DNA of 46,449 bases from Candidatus Peribacteria bacterium (GTDB lineage Bacteria > Patescibacteriota > Gracilibacteria > UBA1369 > LOWO2-01-FULL-3). Shown piece after piece: positions 22,694 through 39,596 of this stretch (the stretch's first letter is position 1; each line of letters opens with the position of its first letter). Below the pieces are notes generated by a model that was given only the letters and a program-made list of their open reading frames with translations, did not search any database and was not told the origin of the DNA. The translations under genes and the position numbers were made by a program. Where the stretch lies: contig CALREX010000003.1 of assembly GCA_943356465.1 (NCBI GenBank), forward strand, positions 1 to 46,449, given 5' to 3'.

Positions 22694-22722
22694 TTGCTCA
22701 AAAAGGGAAAATTTGCTATAAT
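22694..22722 (+). promoter_or_regulatory. promoter of the giant two-gene locus
   Basis: TTGCTC (22694-22699), a 17-bp spacer and an extended -10 TGC-TATAAT (TATAAT at 22717-22722) form the strongest promoter in the window. A small dyad (CCCTT 22691-22695, AAGGG 22703-22707) covers the -35. It is back to back with the tpiA promoter, whose -35 ends 3 bp away. Confidence 0.65.
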
Positions 22723-22740
22723 ATTATGATAAATTTAATC

Positions 22741-22759
22741 GACTCCACATAAAGGAGTC
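22741..22759 (+). promoter_or_regulatory. leader hairpin of the giant locus
   Basis: GACTCC and GGAGTC pair perfectly around the 7-nt loop ACATAAA. The 3' arm contains the only purine-rich GGAG, 18 nt before the ATG. A purely A-rich stretch follows. The hairpin may tune translation or mRNA stability. Confidence 0.4.
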
Positions 22760-22775
22760 CGAAAACAAAAACAAA

Positions 22776-25700
22776 ATGGCCATAAGAAGATTTCTAGATT
22801 GCATCTCTCACTACAGCCAAAAACTCTCTTCGAAAGAGAAGAGATTTTTGTACGAAGAAACACCTCCAAAAAACGCAAAAGCAGAAAAAGTAGAAGCAAA
22901 GAAAGAGCCGAAAGACATGAACCACGAGGAATTCAAAAAATTTCTGGAAGAAAAAACAGGAATAAAAATCGGCAGAAAAGAAACACAAAAAGCAGATGAT
23001 AAACAAGACAGATTCACATTCAAAATAGATGGACTTGAAAGAAGTTTTTTGTGGAATCAAAAATTTGAAGACACGCTAAAAAAATTAAACGATCCGGAAA
23101 AAATCAAACAAGCTGTTTACAAAGAACTTGCAAGAATTGTAGAAAAAGAAGGAATTGATGAAGTGTTAAACAAATTGAAAGGAGAATTAAGACAACTTAG
23201 CGGAGATACAGCACAAGTTTTGCTAGGCAGTTTGAACAAAGACATGCTTGAAGAGCAACAAAAGCAATTACAGGCAGGAATATTGACAAAAAACTCAGCC
23301 ACAGGAGGTCCGGCAGAAGATAAGGCACCACAACCAGCGGAATCAGGAGATAAAACAAGCGACACCCCGGCAGACGGAGCAATAGATAAGCTTAAAAGCA
23401 AAAATCCAGACAGACAGGCCAGAGCCACATTATTTGATGACAAGCAGGTGCCAACCAACGCCATGCTAGAATACATACAGAAGTTAGCGGACACCATCAA
23501 AAAGGGAAAACCAGAGGAAATCGCCGTAATCACTATTCACGACGACAATTCCGGTGACAGCCAGATGCGCTCGGTAAATGCGGCTAACAAAATAAAAAAG
23601 ATTTTGCTTGGAGAAGATGTGCCGGCAGACAAACTGATTGTGTTTGGCGTTGGCACACAAATACCGGATTTAAAACCAGGTCGCGAAACACTTGGACCAC
23701 ATCGTATCCAAGTCTACTTACTAAACAAAGATGAAGTAAAGGACTTCAAAAAACCTGCACCGGGAAAAGCTCCAGCACCAGCACCCGATGCATCCAAAGG
23801 TCCAGGAGGCAGAGAAGAAAAACCTGTAAAAATCGAGACAACAGCATTTGCAGACTTTAAAATAGCGACAACCGACGCTGAAAAAGCAAAACAAGTAAAA
23901 CAAATTGCAAAGATTAAAGAATTAATCCAAGAGGACGAAGGACAACTTACGACCGTACGAGGAACAAAAATGAACGAAAAAAACAAAGAAGCAATAATAA
24001 AAAGAATAGAAAAAAACTTAGCCAGCCTTAGAGCAACACTTGCAAGACTGGAAAAAGGAGAAGTTTTAACTCCTGATGGAGAAGCAAGCTTGATGAAAGG
24101 AAGTGAGAAATTTGTAGTAGATACAAGACCTCCGGAAGAAAAAGCTACAGATAGAGCACCTGCACCTGCACCAAGCCCTGCAGCAGCTCCAGAAGCAGGA
24201 ATAGACACAAACGAACATGCACGTAAAATTAGCAAAGCTGCAGAAAAAGTTGCGGCAGAAGCAGGAACAAGAGAGCCAGACAAATCAAAAGGAGAAACAA
24301 AAGACAAAAAAACAGACAAAGATGGAGATATTTCAGAAGGCATCTTTGATAAAGATGGAAACTTAATAGAAGGAACTTTAACAGTAAAAAATAAAGACGG
24401 GATAGTAATCATCAAGGGAAAATTTGAAGATGAAATGTTAGTAGAAGGAACAAAAACATTACCAAATAAAGACATTCAAAAAGGAAAGTTCAAAGATGGA
24501 GTTTTAATAGAAGGGACAATCGTCCATTCTGACGGCAAGGAAGAAGTGATCGCAGGTGAAACTGAAAAACCGGCAGAAGCTCCAAAAGGAGAACCGGAAA
24601 TACCTAAAGAATATTTGGCAAAATACAACGAAACTCGAGCAAAAGAAAAAGAGATAAGAGCACAAGCAAAAGAAACCTTAATAAAAGCCGGCGCAGATGC
24701 AAAGACAATAGACCCATCAGTAAAAACAGCAATTGACGCAGCTACACAAGCTGCAGATGATGCAGTAAAAGATCTAAAAGGAAAAACATACAAATTAAAT
24801 GCTCACACAAATATAATAATCGGCGAACTGAAAGACAAAACAAATTTACTTACTAAAGGAAGAATAATTCAAAGAAATGGATCCATAACAGAAGGAGAAT
24901 TCGATAAAGATACAGGATATTTAATAAAAGGAAGAATAATTTACCCTGATGGCTATATTTACGAAGGAGATTTTGACAAAAATACAGGATATTTAATAAA
25001 AGGAAGAGTCATTAATCCAATGGGATACATTTACGAAGGAAATTTTGACAAAGGCACGTTAATAAAAGGACGCATAATTTTACCGGATGGAACAATCAAA
25101 GTAGTAGATAAAATTAAAACACCGGAAATACCAGCTCCATCAGCCATTCCATCACCTATTGCAGCAGCTCCAATTCCTGCACCACTTGCCGCACCGGTAG
25201 CAGCCAAAGCCGCAGAATCAAAAGGCAAAAAAGGCAGAGAAGCGGCGGAACAAGCCGCAAGATTAGCAGAGAGACAACCAAGATCTCTTGATCAATGGAA
25301 AGATCTTTTCGCGCAAGACAAGCCGGTTCATAAAAACGTAGCCGACCTAGGCGAAAAAGGCTTATTTAATCCGGAAGGAATCGAAGAAAAATGGAAACAA
25401 ATAAAAGGACACGGAAGAGTTGATAAAATACTTACAAGAGAACCATTTAACATCGACTCAACAAAAACAGGCAGATTTATAACACAAGTAATTACACAAG
25501 GCTCAAACAAAACTGTCACTTTCAAAGATATCTTAAAATTCGCAAAAACATACAACACAACATTCCCTTATAAAGACTATGACGACTTTATAGATAAATT
25601 GGATGAGGAATGGGATGAGAAAAATGTAGACGAAAAAAACAAAATGATAGGAGAACTGAAAGAAATGTTCCACAAAATCATTCTTCCTACCCTAGACCTT

Positions 25701-28700
25701 CTGCAAGCCATAACAGAGCTTGAATATAAAGGAGGTGAAAGACCAAAAGATGCAGAAATTTCGGAAGAAGAGAGACAACAAAAAATCGAGCAATATAATG
25801 CTGAAATAAACATAGACAAAAAACTCGCACTAAGACAGGAACTCATGAGAGACGACCTATATGGCATGTTCCAGTATTCAGAAAGAGAACCGGGAGGATG
25901 GGAACGCATGATGGCATGGTTCAAAGGAGTGGAAAACGAAGTTCCCGTCATGACTGACGCAACAGGAGAAATAAAATATCTGGACAAAGGAATACTAAGA
26001 CGTTCATACGATCCAAAGGCAGCATTTAAAATTTTCCTTGAAACACGCGGAATATACACTGTCGACAATAACGACAACAGAAAAATAGATGAGAAAAAAA
26101 TGCTCGCAGAAATAAACAGATTGATCTTCCTTGGAGGAAAAAGTATCGCACTACAGAGATTGATGTTTGCAGATAAAGAACATGAAAAAACACCGAAAGA
26201 ATTACAAAGAGAAGCCAAAGCCCATCCAGAGCAACTATTACAGTACGTAAAAGGATTGGAAGTTAGAGATTTAAGCAAACTTACTCCTGACCAACTCGAT
26301 GCATTCCAGCTCGGATTCATCATTTCACAAGAAATGAAAGAAGCGAAAGAGCTTCAAGACATACAAGAAAAATTAGGAGACAAAAACGACACATCTCCAG
26401 AAGGCCAAAAAAACCAAGCAATGGCAGCAATGGTACAAAACCTTCAAGAACAAAGAGTACCAAGCGAAGACATAGTAAAAATACAAGATACGCTTTTCGC
26501 GATTGGAGAAGTCACATTCGATACAAATGGAAATCTCTTATCTCATGGAGTAGCTTTGAATAAGAGAATTATGCTAAGACCAGGAGTATTCCTCACAATT
26601 GGAGGAGTCAAACTGGAAAAAGGAGGAACACCGATAATCGCACTTACAGCCGCATACGAAGGTGACAATTTCAGCGCAAGCGCTACATTGGAACTTGATC
26701 TCTCAGGTGTCAGCATCGGAGGAAGCGTTGCATGGGAAAATTTAAGCATAGGATTCGGAAAAAGAGCAAAAATCACGATCGGAGCTGGCGCAAGAGCCGA
26801 TTTCAAAAACTTTGAACTCAGCCTCGGCGCAGGAGCAATGATCACACGCAGAAGAGTCGACATCGTAGCCAAAGAAAATGCCGCCGAAATGGAACAAGAG
26901 GCAGGATTGGCATCTAGAAGCTGGGAAGCTTTCAAGAAATCGAAAGGCCAACCTGCTGAAAAAAGATATGCACAACTTAAGGACATACCAAACCTATACA
27001 ACAATGTAATCGAACCATTCCAAACGACATTTAAAGCCACAAATGAAGACATCGTCTATCTCATGGACAGCCTGAAAGACGAAATCTCAAACAAAGGACT
27101 GGATAAAGTTGCAAGCTCTTGGACAGAATTTTTCCATGGAGTCGGACTTGGGCTAAAACTAACAACAAAACCTCCATTCCTATATATAGGAGTATTCGAA
27201 TTCAAAATCGGATCTGCCAAAGTTTACCTTCCAAACAGAAGCGAAATCGGAAGGATGAGAGATGCAATAAGCGGCAGAATGGTGGAAAGAAAATTGGAAT
27301 TGGCGCTTGCGGAAATAGACAAAAAAATCGCGGCCGGACAAGCTCTTACGCCTGAGACAAAACCGGGAGAAGGAAAACCTGCAGAAGGTACAGCAGAAGT
27401 TCCAAAAGAAGTAAAAACAGAATTCAAAAACGCCGACACATTACCGGGAGCAGTTTCTTATGGCAAAGATGGAATGCCTAAAGTCCACATAAAAGGCGCG
27501 AACTTCAGCTTTGCGACAAACCTTGAGGAGGTAAAAGGAAAAGCACCTGTAGAACCAAAGGAACCGGAAGCAGAAAAACCACCTGAAACAGAAAAAGACA
27601 AGATCGCTCGCTTTAATAAAGCAGTCAGGGGTGTCACAACAGGACCGGACGGCAAAGAAACATACGACAAAGATCAAGATGCCGAAGTACAACTTGGTGA
27701 AGAAAAAGAAGGCATGCGTGAATTTAAGATTCTTAATACGTACAACAAAGACGTTGAAGTCTATATAGATCCTACTCTGTCCCTTTCAGATCTAGGACTC
27801 GTAATAAAAGGAGGAAAACTCTATATCACAGGAGATATCGACCAAATCGCAATTTCACGCGAAAGATTTTTCATGCCATTCCAGTCACAAAAAAGCGCAA
27901 GCAACATAAAAGATGTGATCGTAATCAGAAACCAAAACTCAGTCAGGGGAGGAATAACAAGAGACTGGATCGAGAAATATTCAGGCGGATATGCAGAAAA
28001 ACTTGAAGGCGACAGCGGATTCTCATTTGAAAAAGGATATGCAAAAGCACCTCAGGCAAACATAAAAAATGAAACACTGACAGATGCAGAAGAAAAGGAA
28101 ATACAGTCAATACCGGACAGAGAAATAAAAAAAGAACAAGTCAGAAAAGATAGAATTGCAAAAAATGCAAAAACAAAAGCAGACATAGCCGCAGAAAAAC
28201 AAAAAGTCGCAGAAAGAAATGCACAAATCGACAAACGTGCAGAAGAAGCCAAGGAAATGGACAAATCAACAGACAGACGCCACAGAGTTATAGGTGCGAT
28301 AAAACAGGAAGATTATGAAAAACAGAAACTTTCCGACGATTATTTCTCAGACATGGACAAATTATCAAATGACAAAAAATTCCAAATTGAACTAGGAAAA
28401 ATCACAGACAATGATGAAGCAATAAAAAATCTAATAATCTCTCATTCAAAAGATACAGATAAGAAAGGAAATCTAAAATATCCTGCGCTAAAAGACATAG
28501 AAAAAGCAGGTCACGAATCAGAATTAGACACTGCCGTAATATTAGCCCTAAATGAATGGTTTAAACCTCTATATAAGAAAGGCACTGAAAAAGACAAATT
28601 AATACACAGAATACTTGATAGAAGAATCAAGTTTGCACAAAGAGTGCTTAAAAAATCATTTGAACAAGCCATCGCTTCTGCAAACACACGTCTTGCTAAA

Positions 28701-29813
28701 GACAAACAAATAAACATTTCCGCACAAGATGCCGCTCAACAAGTAATAGATAAAGTATATGGAAACATAAAAGATAAAAATTTCAAATTCAGCGAACTAA
28801 CATGGACAGGCGACAAAACAGACATAGAATACATAGACAAAGGCTCAACATTATTCTCAGCAACAAGAAAAAAGAGCGACAAAAAAGCAGAAGGAACTCT
28901 TACAAAAACAATTGCATACAAATCATTGATTAGTAGTTGGGGAAAAATGGAGCTAGACCATGGCTTCATAAAAGCCGCGATGCAAGAATACGACCCAAAC
29001 AGCAAAGATGAAAACAACAAACAAATCGCTCGCCTACTTCTGGAAATGGCCAGCCCATCTCCTGAATCAGATGTAAACAGCAGTCCGGAAAAAGCGGAAA
29101 AGTTCCTAAAATCACCGCTAGCATTAAAATTGGCAAGCTTGGAAACACTTATGCTTATTCCTGAACTTGGAAAAGACAAATTTGATAAAATTTCAGATCT
29201 TTATGAAAAGATCTCAAATCCTGCCGAATTTGCCGCATTATTGGCAAAACCGGGATACAAAGAAGCACTTGAAGCATACAGAAAAATCGTTCAGGACGTC
29301 AGAGATGCCGAAACATCAGGCAAACCATACGAAAAAACATTCAAATGGGGCGACGACGAATACACTTTACGTCTGACGATGAAGACAAAGATCGTAGCCG
29401 GCGCCTATGCACGTTGTGCAAACGCAAGCTTCTCAGTCAAAGAAGACGGTGACGTCGAAATAGTAAAAGTACAAAAACCGGTCAAACCTGGAGAATATAA
29501 ATACGAAGAACCTGAAAAACCTAAAGAACCGGCAAGACCAATGATAGTCTACATGGAATCGACAGAAACACTAAAATCACAACAAGGCAAAGAACGTGTA
29601 ACAGCAGGCGTAGCCGTAGGAGTGGAACCAAAAGAAAAACCGGAAACACCACCAGAAGAAAAAGTCCACGATAAACAAGCAAAACAGGGAGCAGCCGCAG
29701 AGGAATCTACAGACAAACAGGCAGATCAAGGCGCAAGCCTACCACAACCGGCACAAAGCGGAACACAATATAATGTTCCAAATGAGAATAAAGGCACGCA
29801 ATTACCACATTAA
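22776..29813 (+). CDS. giant multidomain protein (2345 aa) with OmpA-like, MORN-like and beta-rich segments
   Basis: Function not recognised. The N-terminus has no signal peptide and I see no clear membrane helix. In order: a charged N-terminal region; about 249-318, an OmpA-C-like fold (VNAANKIKKILLGEDVPADK, then FGVGTQIPD); Pro/Ala-rich linkers; and MORN-like repeats at about 516-591 and, as exact 24-residue units, 695-778. A large alpha-helical region (about 800-1240) follows. Then come amphipathic beta-strands rich in Gly (about 1257-1368, such as ASATLELDLSGVSIGGSVAW) with more such strands near 1460-1490. The rest is Lys/Glu-rich helices, ending in a Pro/Glu/Gln low-complexity tail. It leads a two-gene unit with a strong promoter, 34 nt before the second giant gene. 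Confidence 0.8.
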   Translation: MAIRRFLDCISHYSQKLSSKEKRFLYEETPPKNAKAEKVEAKKEPKDMNHEEFKKFLEEKTGIKIGRKETQKADDKQDRFTFKIDGLERSFLWNQKFEDTLKKLNDPEKIKQAVYKELARIVEKEGIDEVLNKLKGELRQLSGDTAQVLLGSLNKDMLEEQQKQLQAGILTKNSATGGPAEDKAPQPAESGDKTSDTPADGAIDKLKSKNPDRQARATLFDDKQVPTNAMLEYIQKLADTIKKGKPEEIAVITIHDDNSGDSQMRSVNAANKIKKILLGEDVPADKLIVFGVGTQIPDLKPGRETLGPHRIQVYLLNKDEVKDFKKPAPGKAPAPAPDASKGPGGREEKPVKIETTAFADFKIATTDAEKAKQVKQIAKIKELIQEDEGQLTTVRGTKMNEKNKEAIIKRIEKNLASLRATLARLEKGEVLTPDGEASLMKGSEKFVVDTRPPEEKATDRAPAPAPSPAAAPEAGIDTNEHARKISKAAEKVAAEAGTREPDKSKGETKDKKTDKDGDISEGIFDKDGNLIEGTLTVKNKDGIVIIKGKFEDEMLVEGTKTLPNKDIQKGKFKDGVLIEGTIVHSDGKEEVIAGETEKPAEAPKGEPEIPKEYLAKYNETRAKEKEIRAQAKETLIKAGADAKTIDPSVKTAIDAATQAADDAVKDLKGKTYKLNAHTNIIIGELKDKTNLLTKGRIIQRNGSITEGEFDKDTGYLIKGRIIYPDGYIYEGDFDKNTGYLIKGRVINPMGYIYEGNFDKGTLIKGRIILPDGTIKVVDKIKTPEIPAPSAIPSPIAAAPIPAPLAAPVAAKAAESKGKKGREAAEQAARLAERQPRSLDQWKDLFAQDKPVHKNVADLGEKGLFNPEGIEEKWKQIKGHGRVDKILTREPFNIDSTKTGRFITQVITQGSNKTVTFKDILKFAKTYNTTFPYKDYDDFIDKLDEEWDEKNVDEKNKMIGELKEMFHKIILPTLDLLQAITELEYKGGERPKDAEISEEERQQKIEQYNAEINIDKKLALRQELMRDDLYGMFQYSEREPGGWERMMAWFKGVENEVPVMTDATGEIKYLDKGILRRSYDPKAAFKIFLETRGIYTVDNNDNRKIDEKKMLAEINRLIFLGGKSIALQRLMFADKEHEKTPKELQREAKAHPEQLLQYVKGLEVRDLSKLTPDQLDAFQLGFIISQEMKEAKELQDIQEKLGDKNDTSPEGQKNQAMAAMVQNLQEQRVPSEDIVKIQDTLFAIGEVTFDTNGNLLSHGVALNKRIMLRPGVFLTIGGVKLEKGGTPIIALTAAYEGDNFSASATLELDLSGVSIGGSVAWENLSIGFGKRAKITIGAGARADFKNFELSLGAGAMITRRRVDIVAKENAAEMEQEAGLASRSWEAFKKSKGQPAEKRYAQLKDIPNLYNNVIEPFQTTFKATNEDIVYLMDSLKDEISNKGLDKVASSWTEFFHGVGLGLKLTTKPPFLYIGVFEFKIGSAKVYLPNRSEIGRMRDAISGRMVERKLELALAEIDKKIAAGQALTPETKPGEGKPAEGTAEVPKEVKTEFKNADTLPGAVSYGKDGMPKVHIKGANFSFATNLEEVKGKAPVEPKEPEAEKPPETEKDKIARFNKAVRGVTTGPDGKETYDKDQDAEVQLGEEKEGMREFKILNTYNKDVEVYIDPTLSLSDLGLVIKGGKLYITGDIDQIAISRERFFMPFQSQKSASNIKDVIVIRNQNSVRGGITRDWIEKYSGGYAEKLEGDSGFSFEKGYAKAPQANIKNETLTDAEEKEIQSIPDREIKKEQVRKDRIAKNAKTKADIAAEKQKVAERNAQIDKRAEEAKEMDKSTDRRHRVIGAIKQEDYEKQKLSDDYFSDMDKLSNDKKFQIELGKITDNDEAIKNLIISHSKDTDKKGNLKYPALKDIEKAGHESELDTAVILALNEWFKPLYKKGTEKDKLIHRILDRRIKFAQRVLKKSFEQAIASANTRLAKDKQINISAQDAAQQVIDKVYGNIKDKNFKFSELTWTGDKTDIEYIDKGSTLFSATRKKSDKKAEGTLTKTIAYKSLISSWGKMELDHGFIKAAMQEYDPNSKDENNKQIARLLLEMASPSPESDVNSSPEKAEKFLKSPLALKLASLETLMLIPELGKDKFDKISDLYEKISNPAEFAALLAKPGYKEALEAYRKIVQDVRDAETSGKPYEKTFKWGDDEYTLRLTMKTKIVAGAYARCANASFSVKEDGDVEIVKVQKPVKPGEYKYEEPEKPKEPARPMIVYMESTETLKSQQGKERVTAGVAVGVEPKEKPETPPEEKVHDKQAKQGAAAEESTDKQADQGASLPQPAQSGTQYNVPNENKGTQLPH
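24858..25110 (+). repeat. in-frame tandem repeats encoding MORN-like units
   Basis: Four consecutive units begin at 24858, 24930, 25002 and 25068. The first two are 72 nt, the third 66 nt and the last is partial. Each encodes GRII/GRVI, then an NG/DG turn, YEGDFDK-like and TGYLIK. The Tyr-x-Gly pattern is MORN-like. DNA identity is high enough for recent duplication or copy-number change. Confidence 0.75.
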
Positions 29814-29847
29814 AAATAATCAATTAAAAAAATAATAAAAAAACAAA

Positions 29848-32800
29848 ATGAAAACATTCCAAAAAATTAGCCAATCAATCCTTATATTCTCAATACTGCT
29901 ATCATCCTATCCGGTGAATATCACCTATGCGGTAGATTACCAAAATATATCCAACTTCACACCTCCAAACAGAGCAATAATAGAATATAAAGATGGAGTG
30001 CCTGGACTGGATTATCCAAGTTTTAATAACTTCACAAACAATCCAAACATTCCAGGAGCATTCAACAAAGACGAAAGACAATTCATAGTAGGTAAAAACT
30101 GTGGACAATCTACAACAGATTGTGAATCAAAAGCCTATTACAACACGCTGGATCAAGGAATCAAAGAGGGAGATACGGTAAGATTTGCACTATATTTTCA
30201 CAACAACGGAGGCGATCCATACGTGAAAGAAACAAGTGTAAAAAGCATACAAGACGCTACGAATGTAAAAATCGGAGTGATTTTTGACAAACAGGATCCA
30301 AATCCACAATTCGCACAAGATTGGTTAAGACCAGAGGGATTTATCTCTGCAGACAATAATCAATACAGAACAACAATAACAGATCCAAATTCTGTCATAA
30401 AAGACAAAGACGGAAATCAATTAAAAACAGCAACAGATGACATGGCAATCATGCTGGCAGAAAAAGGTCTATATCTGGAGCCAATAAAAGACAGCGCTTG
30501 GCTTTGGAACAAAAATGCAAATTTTCAAAAACTGGTAAACGTCGGTGACGAATTAATCTTCGTCGCAGACTCAACCGAAACACCGATCTCCCCTGCCACA
30601 AAAGACAATTTAGCTAAAACAAAAGTGACAGCTATAGATTATTCTCCAAATAAAATATCACTAACTTTCGACAAATTACCTGGTTGTTTCCGTTATAGCG
30701 GATTTATATCCTTCGATGTAAAAGTAGTCAAAAAACCTGTGGAGACATCAATATGTTCATCATTGAAAATTACAAAAACAGACTACCTTGATAAAGTACT
30801 TTCACCACAAACCGCATCTAAAATTTCTGCAACTACAACATTTGCACCGGACAATACAATTCCTGCAAAAACAGAAATCCGATGGAAATCAGATGACAAA
30901 AATGGCCTATTTTGGAGAGCGACAAAAGCAGCAGACGGAACAATAAAGTACACTAATATCACGGCAGGAATAAATACTGCAAACCCAGGGGCATTTTCTG
31001 AAGTTGGTGAAGAAATCTACTACACAGGCTACGGAAAAGTGACAGCAGAGTTGGTAAACATAGCAAACGTGCCATACAAAACAATAGAGCCACAATGTAC
31101 AGACAACTTCACAGTAGTAAAACCTGTGAACCCACCAACATGTTCAGAACTTCAAATAAATTATCCAGTAAGCATAACAGAAGGAGTCATATCTGACCTA
31201 ATGGCAAAAGCCACAAATATAGATGAAAACGGCAAAAAATCAGACTTCGTAGGTCAAATAAAATACTTTGTAGACAATGCAAAAAACGGAGAATTTTTCA
31301 CAGAACCTCCAGCAGAGTATCCTTACATGAATCAGCCATATCATATTGATAAATTCGGCTATACAGGAAAACTCCAAGGAGATCCTAAAAAAGAAGGCCA
31401 AACAGGTACACAAACAGTGACAATAGATCAAAAAAAATGGACACATTTCGTAGGATTAAAAGCTGGAGAAAAAATACATATTGAAGCAGTGTTTGATCCT
31501 AAAACAGGAGTAGATGTATCCAAATGTAAAGCGGACTTCCCTATCGCACCCGCTGCAAAATGTACAGAAATAAAAGTAAACAAAAACCTTATTATAACTG
31601 AAGGACAAGTAGCAGAATTTTCAGCAATAGGACAAGATGCAAATAAAAAACTATACAACGGAAAAATCACATATTCAGTACCAGAAGAATACGGCACATT
31701 CTACACAGATCCAAACGATCCGGAAGTAAAAGCCGCAAAAAAGAACACATCTCAACAATCAAAAGAATACAGCGACAAAAACATAAATCTAGATCTTACA
31801 AAACCAATAGGCGGCGAATTTTGTGCAAATTCAGCACAAAAATTCAAAGACGTCTTGCCTCTGATGGTAGCAAATACAAACCTCATATCTTATGCCATAG
31901 ATACGGCATTAAACGTAATGTACGAAATAAATCCGACATACATAGTAAACAATACAATTCAATTTGCAGAATCAAACTATTACACAATCCCAAGTTACAC
32001 AATAAATCAGATTACATATCCGACAATAAATCAGGTTACAGATCCAACAAAATTGGACATGTCCCAAGACAATCCATTCAACAAAATCCCTGGCACAGAC
32101 AACGTTTTCGGTGCATTCGGTTCTGAAAAACTTACACAAGCAGACAAAACAAAAATATCGTCATTAAATAAACAAATACTACAAGTTAAAGCTGGAGATG
32201 CTCAAAAAGGCTCTACTATAGTAGTCGATCCAAACACAAAAGTTTATTTTGTTCCAAAAAAAGGATCTGATGGCAAAAAAGTTATCTCAATTCTTATAAA
32301 CTGCCAATCAGAAAAAGGATGCGACAAATCATTCGATATCGTACCTTTGCCAAAAGAAAAACCAATCGTTTGTGAAGCTCTTGGACTTACGGTCTCAAAC
32401 AAAACAGATCCAAAAAACATACAAACAAACGTTCCATGTCTTTCTAAAAAAGGCACATATAGCCTAAATGTCGAAGCATATAAAGACGCAAGCAAGATTG
32501 CTAAATTATTCGCCATAGGATTCTGGAAAAACAATGTTGTAAAATGGGAATCCACAGATCCGGATGGAGTATTTACAGATATTATAAATAAAACAGCAAA
32601 ACCAGGAAAAAGTCCTTTCCTTGGAAATTATTCAGTAGATTATACAGGTGAAGGAAAAATAACCGCTACACTTGTAGCAATCGATGGAAAACCATATACG
32701 GAAAAAACTTGTTCAACCTTTGTCGAACCTTGTACAAGGTCTTGTAAATCAATTGCCTTTACCTCAAATGGAGAGACCATAACACCAAATTCATCTCCAC

Positions 32801-35535
32801 TGGCAGCACAAAAAGACGCAAAACTTTCGCTTTCTCTTGTGACAAAAGACAATCAAGACGATCCATTACCACAAAGCACAAAATTAAAAGTCCAATGGAA
32901 CACAAATGGAACAATCACAGACAAACAAAACAGCAAAAGCACAGACGTCGGAATAGCAAAAACTATTCAAACCACTCTTGAGGATTTACCTCTAACATAT
33001 TTCGGAGCGACAAAAAACGGACAAATCACAGCAACACTTGTACCGGATCCATCAAGCACTCTTTACGCCGCACAATGTAAAGCTGATGTAAATATAGTAA
33101 TACCATCACCTGAAGAGGCATTATCTTGTAAAAAGACAACTCCAACACTATCCAAATACTTCGGAACATCACAAGAATCATCTCTTGTGCAAAACGAAAT
33201 ATATAAAGTCGGCGCTACAACAACTTACTCAAAAGCAACCACGGAAAAAAATACTTTCGCGGTAGATCCACATATCGGAACAGTTGTCGTAATAAGCAAT
33301 GATCCGCTTGTAAAAGCTGCAATATCAACACTATTAAATAATCTAAAACTTTCAAACGCTCTTACTCAAACAAATCTTGAAAAATACAAATTCACATTAC
33401 TTCCTGAGCAAACAGTAGCAAACGGGGAATCAATCTATGTCGTTACATACAGCGACACAAAGATATCACTTACAAACGCACTTGAAGTAAAAGCGGAAAA
33501 CTTCTCAAATCCATCTGATTGTGACAAGACATTCGGATTAAATTACATTCCTGAAAAACCAAAGGAACCACCAAAAAAACAGGAAATAGTTTGTGAAGAC
33601 TTAAATATTAAAACACCAAAAAGCCCATGGATAGCTGATTCATCAAAGAAACAATTATTTGAAATCGACGTCACAACAACTCCAAAAAACGGCAAAGAAG
33701 ATTTGAAATATGTTTGGAACGTCTCAAAAGGTGACGGAAAATGGAGCAATGGCAGCACTGAAGAAAAAACAAACTCACTAAAAAATACTCTAAAAAATGC
33801 AGGCAAAAACACAACAGTAGAAGTCTACGCATTAGACAAGAATGGAGACAAAATCGAAAAATGTTCAGATACTATCAAGGCAAAAACAGTGGAAAGTCCA
33901 AAGATGAGCAAAACAGTTTACGTCACGGAAGCCAACCCATCAAACACCACAAAAGATTTACTAAACATTGGATCTTCGTCAAAAAATAAAAACGTCACAT
34001 ACAAAATCGAATTTCAGGCAAATTCAGCTACTGCAGCTGATATTCGCGAAAACGCCATGAAAGATGACGGCAAAATTTTCGGAGACAAAAACGGAAATCT
34101 TTCATACCAAGGAATGATCATAAACATCACACACAGGTTAGACAAATACACGATTTTGAAAGACGGAGCTTATTCTCTTGAGAATGAAGACAGCAAATTC
34201 ACAGACTATAATTTCAAGCTTTTAAATCTGGAAGACAAACACAATTGTTACAACGGAACCCAAAAAGCCGGAACAGAAGCAAATAAAGTCTGTATCGGAG
34301 ACAAAGATTCACAAATAGCATTCAAAGACATCATAAACAGATTCAAAAATGGTGAGCCAATAACATTCCAAAATTTAGACACAGACACTTTCATCGAAAT
34401 AAAAGTTCAGATGAAAAACAACACAACTATCAATACAGAGAGCTGTAAAAAATTAAGTGCATCTGATGGTTGTGGAGAACAGTTCAACAACACAGCAAAA
34501 TTCCAGGCGCAAATGGCATTAACAAACGACATAGAAAAAGGCTCATCATCAGCAAAAGTCATAGTTATTTGTCCTTACGTCCTTACAAGACAGGCCGGAG
34601 ACGTATTCTTCCACGACGTACTCGACACAGGAATCGACGTATCACGTTGTTCCGAAGTAAAAAGCACACCGGGGCTAGTCATCCAACCTGAAAAAGTGAT
34701 AAGAAGAAATCTGTTAAAATCAGGTGCGGGAGACTTACCTGCGGAATCAGCATTTCTCGATGTACCTTCACATGACATTTGTCGCTACAGTAATACAAAA
34801 GGAAACATAGAAGGATACAATGACATCCTCTCAAATTTCTCAAGCACAATTTGTGAAATGCGTGCGGATGTTGCCGAAACATGGAAAGAAGCCTATATCA
34901 ATGAATCAATCAAAGCCAACGTAGAAAGAATCTCAAGATTTGGCGAAAACCTTAGAACAAAAGACACAGTCACAAACATGACAGATCTGCAAAACGTTGA
35001 TAACGCACAAAGCGGAGTATTTGTTAAAGAAGGCGGAACACTTACAATAGGAACAGGCTCAGGTGGAACATTTGAAATCAAATCGGACACAAACGTTCCG
35101 GCAGGCCAAACATACGTTGTAAAAGGTGGGACACTTCACATAACATCAGATATCAAATACGGAGAAACAGATTATACAAATCCTGCAAAAATTCCGTCAG
35201 CGGCATTCATCGTCATCGATGGAAACATAATCATAGACAATAATGTAGGACAAATCGACGCCATAGTAATGGCTATAGATACAGACGGAAATGGTGACGG
35301 GAAAATCACAAACAACGCAACTTTCGATGAGAACAACAATACAGAAAGAATGCTTGTAATAAATGGAAGTCTTATCGGAAACGTATCTGAATTATTCAAA
35401 ATTCGTGTCGGCGCAGGCGATCCTACAAAAGATGAAGGAGCAGTGACAATCCGCTACGACGAAAGAATCCTTCTAAATACACCACCAGGATTAAGTGATC
35501 TTCTAAACATCACACAATCATTAATTCCGGGATAA
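29848..35535 (+). CDS. giant secreted surface protein (1895 aa) with Cys-bracketed modules
   Basis: Function not recognised. A signal peptide (residues 1-28, cut after TYA) shows export. The N-terminal domain has a DERQFIVG ... VRFALYFHNN pattern that I recall from other large candidate-phylum surface proteins. Then about seven modules of roughly 80-170 residues follow (about 303-1350). Each opens with a Cys motif (CSSLKI, CSELQI, CTEIKV, CEALGL, CKSIAF, CKKTTP, CEDLNI) and closes with another Cys (CTDNFTV, CKADFPI, CDKSFDI and so on). This suggests disulfide-stapled Ig-like domains. The C-terminal 500 residues include PYVLTRQAGDVFFHDVLDTG and a beta-strand-rich end. No LPXTG anchor or C-terminal membrane helix is visible. 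A terminator follows. Confidence 0.82.
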   Translation: MKTFQKISQSILIFSILLSSYPVNITYAVDYQNISNFTPPNRAIIEYKDGVPGLDYPSFNNFTNNPNIPGAFNKDERQFIVGKNCGQSTTDCESKAYYNTLDQGIKEGDTVRFALYFHNNGGDPYVKETSVKSIQDATNVKIGVIFDKQDPNPQFAQDWLRPEGFISADNNQYRTTITDPNSVIKDKDGNQLKTATDDMAIMLAEKGLYLEPIKDSAWLWNKNANFQKLVNVGDELIFVADSTETPISPATKDNLAKTKVTAIDYSPNKISLTFDKLPGCFRYSGFISFDVKVVKKPVETSICSSLKITKTDYLDKVLSPQTASKISATTTFAPDNTIPAKTEIRWKSDDKNGLFWRATKAADGTIKYTNITAGINTANPGAFSEVGEEIYYTGYGKVTAELVNIANVPYKTIEPQCTDNFTVVKPVNPPTCSELQINYPVSITEGVISDLMAKATNIDENGKKSDFVGQIKYFVDNAKNGEFFTEPPAEYPYMNQPYHIDKFGYTGKLQGDPKKEGQTGTQTVTIDQKKWTHFVGLKAGEKIHIEAVFDPKTGVDVSKCKADFPIAPAAKCTEIKVNKNLIITEGQVAEFSAIGQDANKKLYNGKITYSVPEEYGTFYTDPNDPEVKAAKKNTSQQSKEYSDKNINLDLTKPIGGEFCANSAQKFKDVLPLMVANTNLISYAIDTALNVMYEINPTYIVNNTIQFAESNYYTIPSYTINQITYPTINQVTDPTKLDMSQDNPFNKIPGTDNVFGAFGSEKLTQADKTKISSLNKQILQVKAGDAQKGSTIVVDPNTKVYFVPKKGSDGKKVISILINCQSEKGCDKSFDIVPLPKEKPIVCEALGLTVSNKTDPKNIQTNVPCLSKKGTYSLNVEAYKDASKIAKLFAIGFWKNNVVKWESTDPDGVFTDIINKTAKPGKSPFLGNYSVDYTGEGKITATLVAIDGKPYTEKTCSTFVEPCTRSCKSIAFTSNGETITPNSSPLAAQKDAKLSLSLVTKDNQDDPLPQSTKLKVQWNTNGTITDKQNSKSTDVGIAKTIQTTLEDLPLTYFGATKNGQITATLVPDPSSTLYAAQCKADVNIVIPSPEEALSCKKTTPTLSKYFGTSQESSLVQNEIYKVGATTTYSKATTEKNTFAVDPHIGTVVVISNDPLVKAAISTLLNNLKLSNALTQTNLEKYKFTLLPEQTVANGESIYVVTYSDTKISLTNALEVKAENFSNPSDCDKTFGLNYIPEKPKEPPKKQEIVCEDLNIKTPKSPWIADSSKKQLFEIDVTTTPKNGKEDLKYVWNVSKGDGKWSNGSTEEKTNSLKNTLKNAGKNTTVEVYALDKNGDKIEKCSDTIKAKTVESPKMSKTVYVTEANPSNTTKDLLNIGSSSKNKNVTYKIEFQANSATAADIRENAMKDDGKIFGDKNGNLSYQGMIINITHRLDKYTILKDGAYSLENEDSKFTDYNFKLLNLEDKHNCYNGTQKAGTEANKVCIGDKDSQIAFKDIINRFKNGEPITFQNLDTDTFIEIKVQMKNNTTINTESCKKLSASDGCGEQFNNTAKFQAQMALTNDIEKGSSSAKVIVICPYVLTRQAGDVFFHDVLDTGIDVSRCSEVKSTPGLVIQPEKVIRRNLLKSGAGDLPAESAFLDVPSHDICRYSNTKGNIEGYNDILSNFSSTICEMRADVAETWKEAYINESIKANVERISRFGENLRTKDTVTNMTDLQNVDNAQSGVFVKEGGTLTIGTGSGGTFEIKSDTNVPAGQTYVVKGGTLHITSDIKYGETDYTNPAKIPSAAFIVIDGNIIIDNNVGQIDAIVMAIDTDGNGDGKITNNATFDENNNTERMLVINGSLIGNVSELFKIRVGAGDPTKDEGAVTIRYDERILLNTPPGLSDLLNITQSLIPG

Positions 35536-35562
35536 ACATACAAGCCAATAAGAATTAACAAC

Positions 35563-35593
35563 AAAAAGAGCCTCTCAATACGAGGCTCTTTTT
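35563..35593 (+). terminator. intrinsic terminator after the giant locus
   Basis: GAGCCTC (35568-35574) pairs with GAGGCTC (35582-35588) around a 7-nt loop, extended by an A-run and T-run on the two sides. It is the only classical Rho-independent terminator in the window. It would work in both directions. Confidence 0.9.
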
Positions 35594-35623
35594 GACATAT
35601 CTTTATAGTTTCTTCATTTTCTG

Positions 35624-39305: not shown

Positions 39306-39596
39306 TTATTTAATTGCGTGCATCACTTTCACTTGATTATTGTCGATTTCAAGCTCACTACAAGCCAAAAGCTCCTCTCTCGTAGCTTCACTTTTAACAA
39401 CCTCATCCTTTCTTAGAACATTTTTAAGCCCTGTTACCTGACTGGTAATTTCAACTCCATCCGTATCAACCTCCTTCAAAATATCGACATACTCAAGAAC
39501 TCCGGATAATTGTCCGGAAAATTTTTTAACCTCTTCGTCGCTTAATTTAAGCCTTGCAAGTTTTGCTACATGCCTGACCTGCTCTTCTGTTAACAT
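39306..39596 (-). CDS. gatC: aspartyl/glutamyl-tRNA amidotransferase subunit C
   Basis: GatC is the small subunit that stabilises the GatA-GatB complex. The 96-residue product begins with the typical MLTEEQVRHVAKLARLKLS and continues through QLSGVLEYVDILKEVDTDGV and LRKDEV. It is followed by gatA after 5 nt. A -10-like hexamer ends 6 nt before the ATG, so the mRNA is probably leaderless. Confidence 0.93.
   Translation of the reverse strand: MLTEEQVRHVAKLARLKLSDEEVKKFSGQLSGVLEYVDILKEVDTDGVEITSQVTGLKNVLRKDEVVKSEATREELLACSELEIDNNQVKVMHAIK

Follow-up and report, generated by a model that had tools for sequence, protein, structure and literature searches.

A two-gene giant locus of a Peregrinibacterium that may encode an undescribed surface or envelope structure

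The window, i.e. the whole stretch of DNA analysed (46,449 nt), belongs to the 1.08 Mb genome of a Peregrinibacterium (CPR), whose close relatives carry the names Candidatus Peregrinibacteria, Gracilibacteria or Peribacteria. Mechanically called open reading frames confirmed the two adjacent giant genes, of 2345 and 1895 codons, that the first-pass annotation had described as filling more than a quarter of the window. GENE1 and GENE2 are co-oriented, separated by 35 nt, make up 27.4% of the window, and are flanked by a divergent tpiA and a co-directional holA. The two genes and the transcription signals around them are as follows.

22694–22722, + strand: predicted promoter TTGCTC-17-TATAAT with an extended −10 (TGCTATAAT), read in the sequence
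22741–22759, + strand: small putative 5′-UTR hairpin GACTCC...GGAGTC, a minor feature
22776–29813, + strand: GENE1, 2345 aa, no signal peptide, two Cys, probably a cytoplasmic giant partner
29848–35535, + strand: GENE2, 1895 aa, exported, Cys-rich, putative adhesin-like fibre
35562–35594, + strand: intrinsic terminator downstream of GENE2, a hairpin with a 13-bp stem and a T-run

The proposal that both genes share one strong promoter held up: the −10 element of the extended site before GENE1 (TTTGCTATAATANTATGATA) is also present upstream of GENE1 in two sister species (G231 and G232), and the listing contains no promoter-like site in the 35-nt gap. In sister species a 5′-UTR hairpin occupies the same place with another sequence (GCCC...GGGC), and the keeping of this structure hints at a regulatory or mRNA-stability role; an Rfam search found no RNA element. 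The hairpin downstream of GENE2, previously called the only classical terminator, is the strongest terminator in the window but not the sole terminator-like site (another lies at 39501–39518, for example).

Searches of Pfam, NCBIfam, PHROGs and PADLOC with the GENE2 sequence gave nothing usable, and PDB profile searches with both proteins returned no relatives. Three parts of GENE2 could be delimited.

29848–29931, + strand: signal peptide with likely signal peptidase I cleavage after TYA (residue 28), read in the sequence, with the same layout in homologues
30754–33864, + strand: stalk of putative Ig-like units of ~110–130 aa with a Cys pair each, delimited by Cys spacing and C-x-x-L-x-I starts
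34573–35532, + strand: C-terminal domain (residues 1576–1895), predicted by AF2 and VIA comparison to be a beta-solenoid of the ice-binding/ComZ type, with a conserved YDERILLNTPPGL tail

Across the order, those GENE2 homologues whose N-terminus is complete have a signal-peptide-like start, in agreement with the earlier statement that the second product is exported, and the homologues contain 20–78 Cys and a high proportion of Ser, Thr and Asn. The stalk units, which have no Pfam match, each begin with the C-x-x-L-x-I motif and end with another Cys, a pattern suggestive of Ig-like domains with one disulfide each. The conserved part of the protein is its last 400 residues, and the tip is conserved order-wide. 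The AF2 model of the tip (pLDDT 79, with most of the solenoid >90) has the discontinuous beta-solenoid, adjacent helix and inserted cap that define the fold of DUF3494-type proteins. Comparison using VIA with DUF3494-type ice-binding proteins gave Z scores of 9.8–11 (11.0 for FfIBP) and an rmsd of 3.5–3.8 over ~180 residues, and the competence protein ComZ gave a Z of 10.6. No sequence match to the DUF3494 Pfam family was seen in 40 GENE2 members or 8 solenoid fragments, and the only Pfam matches to the solenoid are sub-threshold (DUF7305 and pAdhesive_15, “ice-binding-like adhesive domain”). A bactofilin, an idea suggested by the rhythm of the sequence, was rejected with a Z of 5.3 versus ~11 for ice-binding proteins. 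The first-pass annotation could place neither product in a characterised family; this no longer applies to GENE2, as the predicted fold of its tip is the beta-solenoid of ice-binding proteins and ComZ, and extracellular proteins of large size and high Cys content have already been described in Peribacteria (PMC4736985).

Because the modelled solenoid matches ice-binding proteins and ComZ, GENE2 may act in the manner of an extended adhesin whose tip does the binding, and we infer an adhesin-like fibre with a role in adhesion. Its size, export, Cys content and conservation, together with its presence at one locus per genome, would also suit a main S-layer (lattice) protein, to whose synthesis GENE1 would be an accessory, and S-layer genes are reported in Peribacteria (PMC4736985). 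We regard an S-layer as very unlikely, given that GENE2 matches no S-layer family and that conservation in it falls on a tip-type solenoid, with a stalk that diverges quickly, a pattern that would point to a fibre rather than a lattice.

The inability to place GENE1 was borne out, as it has no match in Pfam, NCBIfam, PHROGs or PADLOC and no PDB relative, and Foldseek with its model returned matches only at E > 0.1, in the PDB and in viral models. The following parts were distinguished.

22827–22868, + strand: N-terminal motif SSKEKRFLYEETPP, common to a few other large proteins with no signal peptide
23469–23666, + strand: weak, accessory OmpA-like stretch (residues 232–297; PF00691, 13.2 bits, E 0.11)
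24855–25052, + strand: accessory MORN-like tandem repeats, 72-bp unit × 2.8, varying in number
26553–26849, + strand: beta-meander (residues 1260–1358), resembling part of a membrane beta-barrel in the AF2 model
27678–28004, + strand: conserved beta domain (IDP ... ISRERF, residues 1635–1743), the best conserved block in alignments
29400–29432, + strand: invariant motif Cys-x-Asn (C2214, N2216), close to the C-terminus and flanked by two strands, found in all aligned homologues

OmpA-like, MORN-like and beta-rich parts had been noted in GENE1 before. The OmpA-like stretch exists as a weak similarity, but its score lies below the gathering cut-off of 27.2 bits and the alignment shows it to be absent in the same-genus sister G233. 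The tandem repeats are real, but they have no match to Pfam MORN and are not in the conserved part of the protein: species of the one genus already differ in the first 800 residues and in repeat number. Owing to this absence and variation both parts are regarded as accessories, the same-genus alignment having ruled them out as core features, and the conserved core consists of the C-terminal 1200 residues. The beta-rich description was upheld by the AF2 model (pLDDT 81, pTM 0.54), in which the core is arranged as a helical domain, the amphipathic meander of 7–8 strands around residues 1260–1358, the conserved beta domain, a long helix and a C-terminal hairpin. D1665 and R1695 are nearly invariant in the conserved beta domain, and C2214-x-N2216 sits in the loop of the C-terminal hairpin; the invariant Cys is notable because GENE1 homologues hold only 1–14 Cys each. 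Over 90 residues the meander matched the PapC pore with a VIA Z of 9.3, followed by avidins at ~7.4, a comparison that concerns the model only. No Omp85 was found in the genome, making a standard outer membrane unlikely, and a membrane beta-barrel or usher role suggested by the PapC match was set aside for this reason and for the lack of a signal peptide.

In order to follow the two genes across the class, profile searches were run on 288 genomes, 60 within the order and 228 outside it, incomplete MAGs among them. GENE1 matches were confined to the order (46 of 60 members, versus 0 of the 228 other genomes), and GENE1 is, as judged from its sequence, a new order-restricted family. The tip domain of GENE2 occurs widely across the class, also in genomes that lack GENE1, and a solenoid of this type therefore needs no GENE1 in general. 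Counting strong matches only, 43 of the 60 order members have both genes, five have GENE2 only, three have GENE1 only and nine have neither (Fisher p = 2e-5). The eight genomes with one gene mostly reflect contig edges. Two of the five with GENE2 only (G201 and G204) carry a giant ORF in the expected position, included in alignment A2 with the invariant Cys and Asn present, and the remaining ones are mostly contig edges. Homologues are thus not routinely found apart (43 genomes with both versus eight with one), a check that had been set beforehand as a refutation test.

In all 35 loci where both genes are readable, which represent many families of the order, GENE1 and GENE2 are adjacent on one strand, usually with a gap of 2–45 nt and almost always between tpiA and holA. 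A direct search for both flanking genes showed that tpiA and holA are still neighbours in seven of the nine order genomes lacking the pair (with a spacing of ~45 bp in G197), indicating that gain and loss affect the module as a unit. In f2 genomes without the pair, the tpiA–holA interval is filled by a 467–470-aa protein with an N-terminal TM segment (L233:2228–3640, L234:12–1415). Distances between GENE1 cores and between GENE2 tips remain correlated after removal of the HolA/TpiA distance (partial r 0.55, Mantel p ~5e-4, 19 loci), which is taken as supporting evidence only because GENE1 distances are saturated and the control consists of two genes. Order-wide adjacency, joint loss and correlated divergence support the earlier view of a dedicated gene pair. 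It is conceivable that the two products are co-transcribed and act separately, GENE1 as a cytoskeletal or cytosolic scaffold and GENE2 as an independent surface protein, as no physical link between them is visible and GENE2-type solenoids are found widely in the class without GENE1. Such independence is unlikely in view of the joint loss and strict adjacency across an order in which nothing else in the operon is conserved, and of the excess correlation of GENE1 and GENE2 divergence.

The first gene had been described as lacking a signal peptide, which was confirmed for GENE1 and extends to its homologues throughout the order; neither GENE1 nor GENE2 has a clear TM segment. Analysis of 32 loci showed that the charge and the Ser/Thr/Asn content of GENE1 follow tpiA, holA, gatA and other cytosolic neighbours and not GENE2 (Wilcoxon p 4e-5 to 5e-10), and in the 13 loci with a strongly acidic GENE2 the K+R fraction was 0.131 for housekeeping proteins, 0.142 for GENE1 and 0.047 for GENE2. 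This composition supports, short of proof, a cytosolic location, and GENE1 is probably cytosolic; the inside/outside split proposed earlier stands in this form, with GENE2 exported and GENE1 probably internal. Charge complementarity between GENE1 and GENE2 was rejected, being seen at a few loci only and not overall (Spearman 0.12), as was Cys depletion as proof of GENE1 location, since several large cytosolic proteins are equally poor in Cys.

The N-terminal motif, K-E-x-R-[FL]-[LV]-[YF] ahead of a linker rich in Pro, Ala and Glu, is carried by GENE1 homologues and again by other large proteins that lack a signal peptide, with occurrences in the same genome at C1:56070–57518, C2:155169–156242, C1:180866–183415, C2:151240–152277 and C5:75210–81107. 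The last of these is a 1965-aa protein in which the motif accompanies a part that resembles glutamate synthase by eye, an unusual fusion. A 14-residue PSSM whose training left out G000 gave scores of 18–27 for the top four N-terminal windows, versus ≤15.2 elsewhere in the genome, whereas under a stricter PSSM of 10 residues a single internal window outscored all but one of the N-terminal motif windows. In the 80% of G228 that was covered, the motif is carried by one 710-aa protein. With statistics this modest, the motif is a possible targeting or docking signal. Directly upstream of GENE1, family f106 has a 155–190-aa gene (L076:13253–13825, L078:791–1351, L080:14258–14725), and in two of the three the N-terminus has a motif resembling the one in GENE1.

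Alternatively, both products might lie outside, GENE1 being exported by a non-Sec route, perhaps by way of its motif (K-E-x-R-F-[LV]-[YF]), and forming a base or wall layer that holds the GENE2 fibre. GENE1 ranks with the large proteins of the genome that are poorest in Cys, shares its motif with other large proteins and has an amphipathic or hydrophobic Gly-rich beta region, and a few homologues (L103, L110, L109) become more basic opposite an acidic GENE2, all of which would fit. An external GENE1 is nevertheless rather unlikely, because its composition is that of its cytosolic neighbours even where GENE2 is very acidic, the genome offers no Omp85 for a barrel route, and GENE1 has no known export signal.

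The reading that we favour, which we hold at a little short of an even chance, is a two-gene surface module in which GENE2 is a secreted fibre and GENE1 a cytoplasmic scaffold for it. GENE2 would be secreted by Sec, cut by signal peptidase I and folded into a disulfide-stabilised Ig-like stalk, its ice-binding-like solenoid most likely being the adhesive or ligand-binding tip of the surface fibre. GENE1 would share the message with GENE2, remain in the cytoplasm and most likely act as a large membrane-proximal scaffold to make, assemble or display the fibre. A further step would see in the locus a surface apparatus not described before, with a giant adhesive fibre outside the cell and, as its obligatory partner in the cytosol, a giant protein from a new family specific to the order (with the invariant Cys-x-Asn loop), the two being linked across the membrane; this step is tentative and somewhat unlikely. 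A point against the favoured reading is that neither product has a TM segment to connect the two sides of the membrane. Exactly between GENE1 and GENE2, family f5 encodes a protein of 174–178 aa that has a TM helix at its N-terminus and a beta-rich domain on the outer side (L075:6721–7257, L109:7101–7637, L110:6587–7111). This protein is a candidate inside–outside bridge, and f5 is the sole family with such a candidate; a cohesin-like assignment of the 178-aa form, made by eye, was dropped as Pfam gives no support.

CPR genomes are tiny, yet ~1% of the genome goes to the pair in this order, and this expense, together with the retention of one site across widely diverged families, points to an important role. 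The pair is not the sole giant surface investment, as two further giant exported proteins are encoded in the same genome (C4:134797–146544, 3915 aa; C4:43701–52349, 2882 aa). The pair plausibly has a role in attachment to partners, a process that is a central unknown of CPR biology. GENE1 provides an order-specific target open to testing, and the joint absence of the pair in a few lineages, such as f2 and f97, a natural knock-out comparison.

Compared with known systems, GENE2 has no SLH or other curated S-layer domain in Pfam or NCBIfam, and its C-terminus, NTPPGLSDLLNITQSLIPG, has neither an LPXTG sortase anchor nor a hydrophobic tail; a sortase is present in the genome. The modelled tip resembles the DUF3494 proteins FfIBP and LeIBP over the ~180 aligned residues, which include the strand before the helix, the inserted cap and the solenoid. 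It differs from them in having no sequence-family match, in terminating a giant Ig-like stalk and in a Cys-rich inserted region, and ice binding is not implied. ComZ-type tip pilins have a type IV pilin N-terminus, a retained hydrophobic helix and a solenoid inserted in the pilin domain. GENE2 appears to share the solenoid fold with ComZ, the competence tip pilin of Thermus thermophilus, but has a cleavable signal peptide (TYA/V site), a long stalk and the solenoid at the far C-terminus, and is no type IV pilin. The ComZ solenoid is itself closest to FfIBP, and ComZ has been proposed as a pilus-tip receptor (PMC6561018). GENE2 further resembles the Cys-rich proteins of Peribacteria and the giant surface proteins described in Vampirococcus, which are giant, exported and often Cys-rich, with a proposed attachment role; the parts of these two accounts considered here treat exported proteins in general and mention neither the present locus nor a giant partner in the cytosol (PMC4736985, PMC8080830). 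Within the literature and databases searched here, the matched inner partner GENE1 is undescribed. MpIBP is a giant RTX ice adhesin that uses type I secretion, carries RTX repeats and has another ice-binding fold than that of the GENE2 tip. The likeness between the two, which is one of outline of working with no claim of relation, is that each is very long and carries its binding domain near the end (PMC5014055).
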